This document shows positions 11,766 to 15,492 of a stretch of DNA of 64,000 nt, piece by piece. The stretch is from Verrucomicrobiia bacterium DG1235. GTDB taxonomy: Bacteria > Verrucomicrobiota > Verrucomicrobiia > Opitutales > Opitutaceae. The notes below the pieces were generated by a model. The model made no database searches. It was not told the origin of the DNA and saw nothing but the letters and a program-made list of their open reading frames with translations. The position numbers and the translations under genes were made by a program. The stretch spans positions 434,001-498,000 of the forward strand of contig DS990592.1 of NCBI GenBank assembly GCA_000155695.1, given 5' to 3'. How positions within the stretch are numbered: position 1 is the stretch's first letter; each line of letters begins with the position of its first letter.

Positions 11766-13145
11766 CTAGCGGTGGCTCGCGCTTTGGATTCGCTTGAGGT
11801 TTTCTTGAGCGGTCTTGCAGAGATCGGAGTTTGGTGGGAGGGCATCGATGAAGCGGGTCCAGAAGCGGTCGGCGGCTTGGGCGGCGGGTTGCCAATGGGG
11901 GAACTCCTCGGGACGTGGGGGGCGGACTTCGATTGGTTTTGTAGGGAGATCTCCACTACGCTGCGGAGCGTAGCGCATGGGAAGCATGTCGTAGGCCGGA
12001 CAGAGCTTGAGGGGAAGCTGCGGACTCAGGAATACGCTGAGGTTTCCGAGGTGCATATCCGAGTTGCCGATTAGGTGTCCAAAGTGTTCGTAGGTGGCGG
12101 CGTGATCGGCGTCGGCTTGGCTGAGCCAACCTTGTCGGGCGAGGCTTTCGCAGCTGCGACTCCAGCTTTGCTCGAGCTCGCCTCCGAGACCAGCGATGAG
12201 CGGACGCAAGGAAATGGTGCCGACGCGACCTTGGCGGCCCAAGCGGTCGAAGCGCTCGACTTCGAGGTAGGCGCGTTGCTCGGTTTGGATCAGCTGGGAG
12301 TTTGCTGAGGGAAGGCCGATGCGGGACAGTTCCTCCGATGCGACGGCTTCTGCGGCAAGAAGATCGCCCCAGCGTCGCCCGGCGTCGGTTTGCAGGGAGC
12401 CGGAAAACTTGACGATAGCGCGTTGGAAGGCATTGCCTGCGTGTTGAATGCAGGCGGTGAACTTTGGCTGCTCGCCCCCTGCTGACGAGTTGGGGAGTTG
12501 ACCGTCTTCGGTGACGTGACGGGCAATCAGGTCATATTGTGAAGCTCGCTCGCTTTCGTCTATGAATTCCGAGTGGCTGCGCCGGTCTAGAAAAGTATCG
12601 ATTGCCTGGCCTCCTAAGATGAAGTTGCCGGGCGTATCGTCTCCGTGGGCGAGTATCGCTTTGAGCGCTTCGTCGATGGTCCAGTTTTCGGGGTTGGTTC
12701 CGATGCCGAGGGCTGGGCCGTGGGTGTGGGCGAGCAAGCGTCCGAGATAGCCTTGAGGACGCATGTCCTCGAGAAACCATGGCAGGTCCGGGAAGAGTTG
12801 CGGGTGATCTTCGCCGTTTTGCAAGTAGCTGTAGTCATCGCTCTCCCAGTTCGGCTCGAGATAGAACTCGCCCTGATGAAGGGCGTAGAGTGTGCCTGCC
12901 ACTCGCGCTTGGCCGTTGGCGTCGACTTGGTAGAGCTTCCAGCTAGATTCCTTTCCGTCGAGGGGGCGCGGCAGGGCGTAGCGAGCGCGGCGGGTTTGGC
13001 CGATGCGTAAGGTTTTCGAGGAGGCGCTTATCGCTCGGGATACGGTCGGCTGGCTGACTCCCAGTCGACGAGCGATGTCCGCTGCGGGCAACGAGCCTTG
13101 GGAGGCGAGCAGTCGCTCAATGGAATCTGTGTGTTTCGAACTCAA
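11766..13145 (-). CDS. yjjJ: HipA-like kinase with fused N-terminal HTH (YjjJ/HipH type)
   Basis: This 459-residue protein resembles the HipA-fold Ser/Thr kinases used as type II toxins, in the YjjJ form that carries its own DNA-binding domain. Residues of about 5-50 form a winged helix (ADIARRLGVSQPTVSRAIS). The kinase part has GGEQPKFTA near the nucleotide loop, IVKFSG, the catalytic loop HLIGNSDMHLGNLSVF and the metal site CPAYDMLPMRYAP. Length agrees with E. coli YjjJ (443 residues). The start is TTG at 13145-13143 with no ribosome site and a very short leader. No hipB antitoxin gene is adjacent, so the fused HTH may do the regulation. A 15-base direct repeat abuts the start. A target tRNA synthetase has not been identified, though serS and lysS lie in the window. 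Confidence 0.87.
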   Translation of the reverse strand: MSSKHTDSIERLLASQGSLPAADIARRLGVSQPTVSRAISASSKTLRIGQTRRARYALPRPLDGKESSWKLYQVDANGQARVAGTLYALHQGEFYLEPNWESDDYSYLQNGEDHPQLFPDLPWFLEDMRPQGYLGRLLAHTHGPALGIGTNPENWTIDEALKAILAHGDDTPGNFILGGQAIDTFLDRRSHSEFIDESERASQYDLIARHVTEDGQLPNSSAGGEQPKFTACIQHAGNAFQRAIVKFSGSLQTDAGRRWGDLLAAEAVASEELSRIGLPSANSQLIQTEQRAYLEVERFDRLGRQGRVGTISLRPLIAGLGGELEQSWSRSCESLARQGWLSQADADHAATYEHFGHLIGNSDMHLGNLSVFLSPQLPLKLCPAYDMLPMRYAPQRSGDLPTKPIEVRPPRPEEFPHWQPAAQAADRFWTRFIDALPPNSDLCKTAQENLKRIQSASHR

Positions 13146-13227: not shown

Positions 13228-13598
13228 GCGATGGTTGGGTACTGGGTAAGAGAAGAGGGCTAAATGGGGCGGATGGGGATGAACTATTTTAACAGAGATC
13301 CGGCCATTGGCCGGAACAGGGTGGCCTGCGGCCAGCAGGATTCAAGATAGCAAGAGTGACGCCCTCCGGGGTGGATCTTATTTCCACTGTGTTTGGTGTT
13401 GAACCAAAAAGGGGGGGCGAATCAGGCGGGCAGAGGGACTGGTCTCTTGCGTGGAGCCGATTTTTGCCTGTGACGAAGTTGGCTAAATGCTGCTCGGGTC
13501 CGAATCCCGGAACGCGGCCTACAAAAAAACGCCACCTGGTGGGATGACGTTTTCTTGAAAGTAGTGGCGGAGAGTACCGAGACTTCTGAGCCTTTCCA
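13228..13598. other. Gene-free stretch between hipA-like gene and IS110 transposase
   Basis: No gene is supported. The stretch has a perfect GC-rich palindrome at 13299-13315 (TCCGGCCATTGGCCGGA) and a hairpin with a T-run on the minus strand near 13527-13550, which could end transcription leaving the transposase. GTGGCGGAGAG at 13564-13574 repeats the 3' end of the downstream tRNA-Ser. Confidence 0.4.
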
Positions 13599-14915
13599 TC
13601 AAGTAAAAAGTAGATTGTTTTCATCGTCGATAAATCCGAGTTCCTTCATCTTGCCCATGATCGGCGAACCGCGTTTGGCTAGGCATCTCACGTAGGCGGC
13701 CTCGTCGTACTGGGTTCGGTCCTTCCAGCAGCGATAGAGGATTCGAGTCCACTTGAACGCCAGAGCGCGCTTGGCCACGCCGACGCGCTTGCCGCGTTGC
13801 CTCATCAGCTCGTAGCAAGCCTTGGCCCAAGGGCTGAACTGGATCGTCAGTCCAGCCCATTCGTGGAAGCTTTGCCTCAGGAACTTATGGCAGCGCCCCC
13901 TCATGAAGGTATAGTTCTTCGTCCCGCTTGAGACCTTGATCGGGGCGATCCCTACGTAGACCTGGAACTTGGAGACGTCCTCGAAGCGTTCCCTATCGCT
14001 GCCGAAGGCGGCGGCAAGCCGAGGGGCCATCGCTGGACCGGCCCCGGGAAGCGTCGCGAAGAGATCCTTCTCGGGATGGCTGCCGAAGCAGGACTTAACG
14101 CATTTGGCTATAGCCCGTATCTGACTGTTCAATACGCTCAGCTGCTCGACGCAGTTGCCCAGACGCAGGGCCCCAAGCTCCTCGAGCAAGGGGTCGGAGC
14201 TTAGCTTCGAGCTCGACCGCAACGCGGCGACGCGTTTGGCGATAGCCTTCGCGCTGCGGCTGCCGTTGGCGTAGTAGAAGCGTTCGAGTGTCTGGTCCTT
14301 GGACTTGGAGAGCTTCGAGTAACAGGGCCATCTGCGCAGGAACGCCAAGCTGATCGGGTCCCAAAGCTCGTCGCCGACCATAGGCAGGGCCTGCGGATAG
14401 TACTCGCGTAGCAGGCTTTTGAGACGCAAGGCCACCGCGACGCGCTGTTCGACCAGCTCCCGGCGATGCGCGTTTAACGCGTCGAGGCGACGGCTGGCCT
14501 CGTCGCCCTTGAGCACTGGCTTGATGCGGTCGCGATGAGTGAAGAGCATGCGAAGCAAGGCGCTTGAGTCGATGGGGTCGCTCTTGGCCCCGCTGGGATG
14601 GAGGCTCTTGCGGAACCTCGCCGCGGCAAGGGGATTGACCGCGAACAGGTCCACGAACTCGAAGTCGAGCAGCAGGTTGACCAGAGCCCCCTTGCTCTGC
14701 TCGCTGAGGATGGCGACTCGCCCTTGCCCGACGCGCTCGCGCAGCCCGGCCATGAACGCGTTCATGGAGCCTGGGTCGGCGGCTACCTCGAAGCGCTGCT
14801 CGCTTCGAGATCCCGCGGGAAGAAAATGTATGCAGTTGGTCTGGTGTCCCCAGTCCACGCTAGCGTAAGCGGCATGCGAGGACTGGTTGCAAAACGGGTT
14901 ATTCAGCTCAATCAT
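13599..14915 (-). CDS. IS110-family (DEDD/Ser) transposase
   Basis: This 438-residue recombinase cuts and joins DNA guided, in studied members of the family, by a bridge RNA. The N-terminal RuvC-like domain shows the acidic set: Asp in YASVDWGHQ, Glu in ILSEQSKG and the pair in AKSDPIDSSALL. The C-terminal Tnp_20 domain has TLPGAGPAMAPRLAAAFGSD and GIAPIKVSSGTKN, the latter likely holding the nucleophilic Ser, followed by FLRQSFHEWAG. Length is typical and the frame is open, so it may be active. It is read from the strand opposite to the neighbouring MBL gene. An upstream structured segment at 15056-15198 is the expected place for the guide RNA in the IS110 subgroup. Confidence 0.93.
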   Translation of the reverse strand: MIELNNPFCNQSSHAAYASVDWGHQTNCIHFLPAGSRSEQRFEVAADPGSMNAFMAGLRERVGQGRVAILSEQSKGALVNLLLDFEFVDLFAVNPLAAARFRKSLHPSGAKSDPIDSSALLRMLFTHRDRIKPVLKGDEASRRLDALNAHRRELVEQRVAVALRLKSLLREYYPQALPMVGDELWDPISLAFLRRWPCYSKLSKSKDQTLERFYYANGSRSAKAIAKRVAALRSSSKLSSDPLLEELGALRLGNCVEQLSVLNSQIRAIAKCVKSCFGSHPEKDLFATLPGAGPAMAPRLAAAFGSDRERFEDVSKFQVYVGIAPIKVSSGTKNYTFMRGRCHKFLRQSFHEWAGLTIQFSPWAKACYELMRQRGKRVGVAKRALAFKWTRILYRCWKDRTQYDEAAYVRCLAKRGSPIMGKMKELGFIDDENNLLFT

Positions 14916-15055
14916 GACTATGCTTTCAGTTATTCTTTTGCGAAGGCAGGCGCCGCGGCGAAGCGCTTATTGGATGGATCCGCACGGTCCATTCTTCTTG
15001 AGCATTCGTTTTGCGGCGTCTTTTCCGCCCCGCCGGCGCTCTCGGTAAATTCCTC

Positions 15056-15198
15056 GAGGGAAACCAAAGCGACAGCCGTTGTGCGGGACGGCCGACGCCA
15101 CAAGTTTCCCTCAGAGCTCCGCCGCGGCAAGTTGTTAACAATGCTGCTGCGGCGAGTCTTGTCCTTCGGACTCCTCGCAGCATTGATTAACAACTTGG
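15056..15198 (-). ncRNA. Candidate IS110 bridge RNA (structured left end)
   Basis: Two strong hairpins lie 5' of the transposase start. The first has arms CAAGTTGTTAA (15128-15138) and TTAACAACTTG (15188-15198), continued by CAATGCTGC and GCAGCATTG after one bulged base. The second has GAGGGAAAC (15056-15064) and GTTTCCCTC (15104-15112) enclosing an inner stem GCCGT / ACGGC. IS110 members are known to encode their bridge RNA in the left end, on the transposase strand. The fit of these hairpins to the target and donor loops has not been shown, so boundaries are guesses. Confidence 0.4.
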
Positions 15199-15364
15199 AC
15201 AGGCAATAAGGAGCGGAGTGACGACACTCGAGCAGCGTAGCTGGGAGACAAGGGATTGGCGAGCTTCGCTCGGTCCTTTGGACCCCTGCTTCGCATGTCC
15301 CATCTCTAGTCGCTGCGCTTCTTCCGTCGAACCCTGTGGTTCTCATCCCCCTCTATCCGCCCGT

Positions 15365-15401: not shown

Positions 15402-15492
15402 TGGCGGAGAGAGAGGGATTCGAACCCTCGGTACGGTTTACCCGTACGACGATTTAGCAAACCGTTGCCTTAAGCCACTCAGCCATCTCTCC
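15402..15492 (-). tRNA. tRNA-Ser (anticodon GCU)
   Basis: The minus strand gives a 91-base class II tRNA with an encoded CCA end. The acceptor arms are GGAGAGA (5', from 15492) and TCTCTCC. The D arm contains TGGCTGAGTGGCTTAAGGC, the anticodon loop reads TTGCTAA and so carries GCT, and a long variable arm (TACGGGTAAACCGTA) identifies serine. The T arm is GAGGGTTCGAATCCCTC. It reads AGC and AGU codons. Its 3' end is a boundary of the IS110 region, as is common for integrating elements at tRNA genes. A terminator follows directly. Confidence 0.95.

Follow-up and report, generated by a model that had tools for sequence, protein, structure and literature searches.

A transposase gene of the IS110 group lies within the 64,000-nt stretch of the Verrucomicrobiia bacterium DG1235 genome analysed here (the window; contig DS990592.1, positions 434,001 to 498,000). 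The locus raises the question of whether the non-coding sequence on the 5′ side of this gene encodes a guide RNA with target and donor loops, as a sequence-only reading had proposed, and which target such loops would name. From sequence comparison we conclude, with a probability of about 93%, that this 5′ non-coding sequence specifies the bridge RNA (seekRNA) of an IS110-group element. The element ends, the core, the complementarity of the right target and right donor guides, the left target guide pairing, the dispersal of the target and the stability of the fold are all read from the sequence itself.

The element and its boundaries

The transposase, a predicted RNA-guided recombinase of 438 aa, is encoded at 13599..14915 on the minus strand with no internal stop. 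It matches the Pfam models DEDD_Tnp_IS110 (PF01548, E = 4.8e-20) and Transposase_20 (PF02371, E = 1.5e-14), both passing their cut-offs, and scores 132.9 bits against NF033542, below the 140 cut-off of that model. Candidate DEDD residues (D21, E72, D113 and D116) and the SSG motif (S329-S330-G331) were picked by eye from motifs, and we take the four acids to be the DEDD catalytic residues. The sequence-only reading, which described a full-length transposase with the DEDD acids and the SSG serine, agrees with these observations. An SG motif of IS110-type transposases is described in the available excerpts of PMC11187229.

The host genome carries three copies of the element (c1–c3). Copies 2 and 3 show no difference over 1629 bp; copy 1 departs from them at 8 positions, none of which falls in the first 294 nt. 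Two relatives were included in the comparison: L012, with 89% protein identity, in a MAG named Pelagicoccus sp., and L024, at 62%, in a different genus. The 89% relative also occurs in a genome from the same genus as the window; L013 (G004) has the same element and flank stretches as L012 and was counted as the same site. The boundaries follow from comparing the three genomic copies with the two relatives and with a near-identical, unoccupied site that lies about 1.3 kb past copy 2. This site reads ..TCACTTCGCTC-CT-CGGTAGTGGGCA.., and when the flanks of copy 2 are joined they match it for 47 nt to the left of the join and 14 nt to the right. Because the unoccupied site carries CGGTA, which is seen to the right of every copy, CGGTA (13575..13579, minus strand) is the right target half and lies outside the element; this leaves CT as the core, and the element extends on the minus strand from 15210 to 13580, with the left core at 15210-15209 and the right core at 13581-13580. 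CT flanks both sides in the five elements and occurs once in the unoccupied site, as a core common to donor and target. We had considered CTCGGTA as right-end element sequence; this was dropped because the unoccupied site carries CTCGGTA, and UACCGAG was consequently reassigned from the donor to the target guide. The left target half, CTCGAGTGTCGTCACTCCGCTC (15211..15232, minus strand), is a longer variant of the target motif, and similar empty repeats were seen at 14 of 30 loci read.

The left non-coding end (LE; 14916..15208, minus strand), which encodes the candidate bridge RNA, measures 293 nt compared with 17 nt for the right end (RE; stop codon to right core), and the RNA lies upstream of tnp. 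All three copies and both relatives reach beyond the two hairpins that had been proposed and end at the position of 15210; since the element spans from one CT core to the other, both hairpins lie inside it. A candidate imperfect subterminal inverted repeat matches at 8/9 positions in c1–c3, 9/10 in L012, 6/7 in L024 and 10/11 in the more distant relative in G002. An automated core finder was run on 19 loci; its top matches missed the known ends of L001 and L024, and it served only as a hint for a further relative, L056.

Predicted structure of the upstream RNA

The 295-nt left end folds with a minimum free energy (MFE) of -125.5 kcal/mol (z = -4.95), a stability equalled by 0 of 200 shuffled sequences. 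The hairpin at 15128-15198 is confirmed as a 5′ stem-loop (SL1; 15128..15197, minus strand), with a 20-pair stem (15197-15128) and a 3-pair inner stem. SL1 alone folds with z = -5.39, again with 0 of 200 shuffles equally stable, and 100% of its cells are paired in three lineages, with 2 pairs altered on both sides. The arms, with the predicted target and donor loops (14953..15127, minus strand; fold z = -4.94), are closed by an outer helix, CCGCGGCG/CGCCGCGG, which joins 15127-15120 with 14960-14953 through 8 pairs that are invariant across the three lineages. The hairpin at 15056-15112 is likewise found in the window sequence, and the MFE fold contains it. In one of the three lineages, L024 by its letters, five outer-stem pairs (alignment columns 136-140) are disrupted, so that the hairpin may represent another way of folding the target-binding loop.

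In a structure drawn by hand, 98.1% of 162 cells are paired across the three lineages, compared with 31-53% when the structure is slid, a control that favours any structure drawn from one of the compared sequences. Two of its 54 pairs, both in SL1, show a two-sided change, a number reached by 63 of 500 shuffles. With RNAalifold alone, two-sided changes were seen in 4 of 87 pairs and the covariation term was unfavourable (+2.35). That the guide loops are open is our own reading of the fold, whereas the MFE structure places most of the left target guide within helices. A search of Rfam gave no bridge-RNA match. The joined ends of the element read TTGATG, 17 nt, TATTGC, which by eye is a weak promoter match; a promoter at the joined ends has been published for IS110 elements, according to excerpts of PMC11208160.

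Guides in the candidate bridge RNA

The predicted right target guide (RTG; UACCGAG, 15041..15047, minus strand) is the exact complement of CT-CGGTA at all five sites, and the predicted right donor guide (RDG; CAAUAAG, 14966..14972, minus strand) is the exact complement of CT-TATTG in all five elements, each with 7 exact top-strand pairs, core included. With the RNA numbered from the left core, the RTG occupies 163-169 and the RDG 238-244 (243-249 in L024). As a chance level, 21 of 1966 CT-starting flank 7-mers have a complement in RNA 100-290. Both guides and their partners (RT and RD) are invariant among c1–c3, L012 and L024, and hence show no co-change.

The predicted left target guide (LTG; UGUCGCUUUG, 15065..15074, minus strand) sits directly 5′ of a small hairpin that precedes the RTG. 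Ten nucleotides pair with the bottom strand of the left flank in each of the three copies, leaving the core unmatched. When each LTG was compared with its own left flank, controls as good or better numbered 0 of 4000 for L012, whose homologous LTG pairs over 15 nt, 43 for c3, 56 for c2, 133 for c1 and 351 for L024, the last not being significant. When guides and targets were cross-compared, the L012 guide reached 13.5 with its own target and 5-6 with the remaining four. The window guide reached 8-9 with c1–c3 and 6-6.5 with the L012 and L024 targets, and the L024 guide had no own-target preference (6.5, tied with c3). These comparisons point to one clear co-change in the LTG pairing, in L012. 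The probable left donor guide (LDG; GCUCAAGAAG, about 14994..15003, minus strand) has a one-base bulge against GCTCAGAAG and its match is weak, with controls as good in 24 (c1), 121 (L012) and 184 (L024) of 1500 cases. Runs of 7-10 nt outside the guides also turn up in the pairing scans, and the guides were picked at homologous or consistent positions. Two other layouts, an IS1111-type (reversed) guide order and an opposite-strand RNA, were judged by eye and dropped after the core had been fixed.

The loops thus pair with flanks and ends in the manner that the sequence-only reading had foreseen, the RTG with the core and CGGTA, the RDG with the core and TATTG, and the LTG with the left flank. 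Its proposal of a guide RNA with target and donor loops, upstream of the transposase and on the same strand, is supported by the exact RTG and RDG complements and by the guide order, which is that published for IS110 elements: in excerpts of PMC11208160 and PMC11187229, a bottom-strand match lies 5′ of a top-strand match, upstream of tnp.

Target motif and insertion sites

The target spelled by the guides is TGTCGCTNNG-CT-CGGTA, a motif dispersed in the genus. Allowing up to one mismatch, TGTCGCTNNGCTCGGTA (LTG, core and RT with two wobble positions open) has 95 matches in 8/8 genus genomes compared with 9 for the reversed pattern, a control that leaves low-complexity bias possible, and 11 compared with 0 in the own genome. 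This search was devised after two empty repeats with the left sequence of the guide beside the core had been seen, L112 (TGTCGCTTTG-CTT-CGGTA) and L114 (TGTCGCTCCG-CT-CGGTA). Thirty-seven of the 95 matches contain no mismatch, and by hand count 10 of those 37 have TTTG. The exact 17-mer of the guide, TGTCGCTTTGCTCGGTA, occurs 10 times (7 in G004, 2 in G003 and 1 in G007) and is absent from the 11 matches in the own genome, 4 of which fit the NN form perfectly but lack TTTG. The enrichment of the guide-spelled motif raises our confidence in the LTG assignment. Since its surroundings vary among the 30 loci read, several repeat families may have the motif in common.

When 211 bases around the unoccupied site were searched against the own genome, 15 places were found. 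The query's own position and the flanks of copies 1 and 2 are counted among them, and several of the 15 match only part of the query. The 12-mer CGCTNCTCGGTA had been tried as the target motif; with 53 matches compared with 40 reversed in 8 genomes it is not enriched, and it was replaced by the guide-spelled pattern. At 14 of the 30 CGCTNCTCGGTA loci read, from 6/8 genomes, TGTCGTC lies within 25 nt upstream. A near-identical short repeat, TGACTG-TGTCGCTTTGCTCGGTA-CGCGGTT, recurs in G004 (e.g. L140, L148, L156 and L164) and equals the guide-spelled target; it may be a mobile or REP-like repeat in its own right.

The guide-spelled target abuts the core, and the spacing at real sites ranges from 0 to 5 nt. 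The distances from the left-guide match to the core at the five insertion sites are 0, 3, 3, 4 and 5 nt, with 3-5 nt in two of the three genomic copies, L012 and L024, and the identical copies 2 and 3 have spacings of 3 and 0. For the copy 2 type of site, the unoccupied counterpart shows that the spacing was already there when the element inserted. At somewhat less than even odds, the bridge RNA of this lineage tolerates a gap between left match and core, the guide being written gapless and longer variants with 3-5 nt also being used. Drifted or imperfect targets, or a partly misassigned left guide, are the alternatives for this otherwise unexplained variation.

Relatives and distribution

A left-end search of 252 family genomes gave matches in six, which are the own genome, G004, G015 and three with partial matches from one genus. 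Every match among 778 plasmid records was below 60% identity, a search of viral contigs with one pattern found nothing, and one literature search on Pelagicoccus and IS110 found no paper in the collection searched. A 36% aa relative is present in six copies (L014, L016-L020) in G002, a genome of the same genus. Its candidate guides have the same order and different sequences: LTG 7 nt (ATACGCG, through the first core base), RTG 10 (1 GU), LDG 9 (1 GU) and RDG 7 (1 GU, core excluded). For the target and donor strings, the left part was taken from L014 and the right part from L018, and runs as long as 9 nt also occur outside these candidate guides. The flanks of the G002 copies, which have the 10/11-bp subterminal inverted repeat, resemble sites in a cassette array that we take to be integron attC sites.

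In G489 and G391, with four copies each, the RTG (after the core) and the RDG are 6 nt each in 8/8 copies, and the match of the LTG runs through the core for 13, 13, 9, 9, 8, 8, 5 and 3 nt. The corresponding matches in the window family are 3, 3, 5, 3 and 4 nt. These lengths indicate that the core mismatch and the variable gap distinguish the window lineage from G002, G489 and G391, and the single-copy L056 agrees, with an LTG of 6 nt through a core that was itself deduced from pairing. By eye, most of the eight G489 and G391 copies (L128-L135) adjoin REP-like palindromes, and their left target guide spells the palindrome edge followed by GCTC-CT. At L123 (G592, about base 1600, reverse strand), an LE with the stem-loop and an RE are separated by less than 500 bp that contain no transposase gene, and this pair is likely a non-autonomous derivative; L124 and L125 are solo left ends.

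Alternative explanations

The sequence-only reading had also suggested that the loops would name the target and could reveal a new specificity near a tRNA-Ser gene. The first part is borne out by the dispersed motif that the guide spells, but tRNA-Ser(GCT), a real gene at 15402-15492 on the minus strand, is a neighbour and not the target. If the element targeted the 3′ end of this gene and the repeat match were secondary, the position of copy 1 about 190 bp away and the resemblance of its right flank, CTCTCCGCCACT, to the tRNA-Ser 3′ end would follow; however, no tRNA lies in the flanks examined at four of the five insertion sites (L002, L003, L012 and L024), and the copy 1 junction is found empty, with one base different, at L089 and L096 in another genome of the genus, so that we give this explanation hardly any credence. 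The conservation of SL1 would also suit features acting only at the DNA or mRNA level, such as a transposase-binding palindrome or a translation-control leader, with targeting by the protein alone, as would the persistence of the left end with SL1 at L123, where no guide loops are recognizable by eye, and partly at L124 and L125. Such features would not be expected to produce exact RTG and RDG complements in the IS110 order, nor the co-change in L012, a guide-spelled target that is dispersed, or a matching layout in G002, and we consider them very unlikely as the whole explanation.

Somewhat less improbable, though still unlikely, is that a bridge RNA acts but the LTG is wrongly named, the RTG being used with a short through-core LTG and the observed matches reflecting resemblance to a common motif. 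The variable distance from LTG to core, the chance levels of 1-3% for the c1, c2 and c3 pairings, and the through-core sense matches of 3-5 nt at 5/5 sites all agree with this. Against it, none of the 4000 controls equals the 15-nt pairing in L012, the named segment lies immediately before the small hairpin and the RTG, and the LTG joined to the core and RT spells the motif with 95 matches against 9.

Window positions 13490-13574 and L004 hold the tRNA-Ser-3′-end-like CTCTCCGCCACT and a terminator-like stretch without a complete tRNA, and L004 has two such copies close together. The Rfam family RF04351 (plastid psbL-rps4 3′UTR) scores above its cut-off at 15405-15457 on the plus strand, antisense to tRNA-Ser, and is probably an artefact of a model covering a tRNA. 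The gene at 11766-13145 (minus strand) encodes a protein with a HipA_C domain and weak helix-turn-helix matches at its N terminus; it may be a HipB-HipA-like gene in one piece.

Proposed mechanism and comparison with known systems

By analogy with IS621 and ISEc21, from which we infer transcription, protein binding, circle formation and strand exchange, the element would excise to a circle whose joined ends carry the donor site AGAAGT-CT-TATTG. The RNA would be read on the transposase strand and bound by the transposase. Its first loop (LTG and RTG) would find TGTCGCTNNG-CT-CGGTA or longer variants, its second loop (LDG and RDG) would hold the element ends, and recombination at CT would insert the element.

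Placement, order, guides and target fit the IS110 bridge RNA as published in the available excerpts of PMC11208160, PMC11208158 and PMC11187229. With IS621 (excerpts of PMC11208160 and PMC11208158; PDB 8wt6), the window element shares the DEDD recombinase family, the CT core, the 5′ stem-loop, a long LE, a predicted same-strand RNA upstream of tnp with the target loop before the donor loop, and candidate left guides that pair with the bottom strand and right guides with the top strand. It differs in that its transposase has 438 aa compared with 328 residues in the IS621 chain, the LTG bases nearest the core mismatch the core, the distance to the core varies and the LDG seems bulged. If the flexible left register is true, targeting rules derived from IS621 would be too strict for some lineages, which bears on target prediction and reprogramming.

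ISEc21, whose seekRNA is of the IS110 type in excerpts of PMC11187229, likewise has an upstream non-coding region with the bottom-strand match before the top-strand match, and its target appears to differ. The imperfect 9-bp subterminal inverted repeat contrasts with the repeat of 2-3 bp reported for the IS110 group in excerpts of PMC11208160. This repeat, 8/9 in the window copies and 9-11 bp long across the window copies, L012 and G002, has a length in the range of the subterminal inverted repeats (STIRs) of 7-17 bp in the IS1111 group. Unlike that group, in which the RNA lies downstream and the top-strand match comes first, the window RNA is upstream with the bottom-strand match first, and only 17 nt lie downstream. 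A few exceptions to the IS110/IS1111 rules on repeats, RNA position and guide order are mentioned in the excerpts of PMC11187229. Among solved structures, the ISCro4 transposase (PDB 9t56) is the best sequence match (E = 1.2e-6), with only residues 258-416 aligned. To this known kind of system, the window contributes a bridge recombinase of 438 aa for which guides, core, donor and a natural target are predicted.
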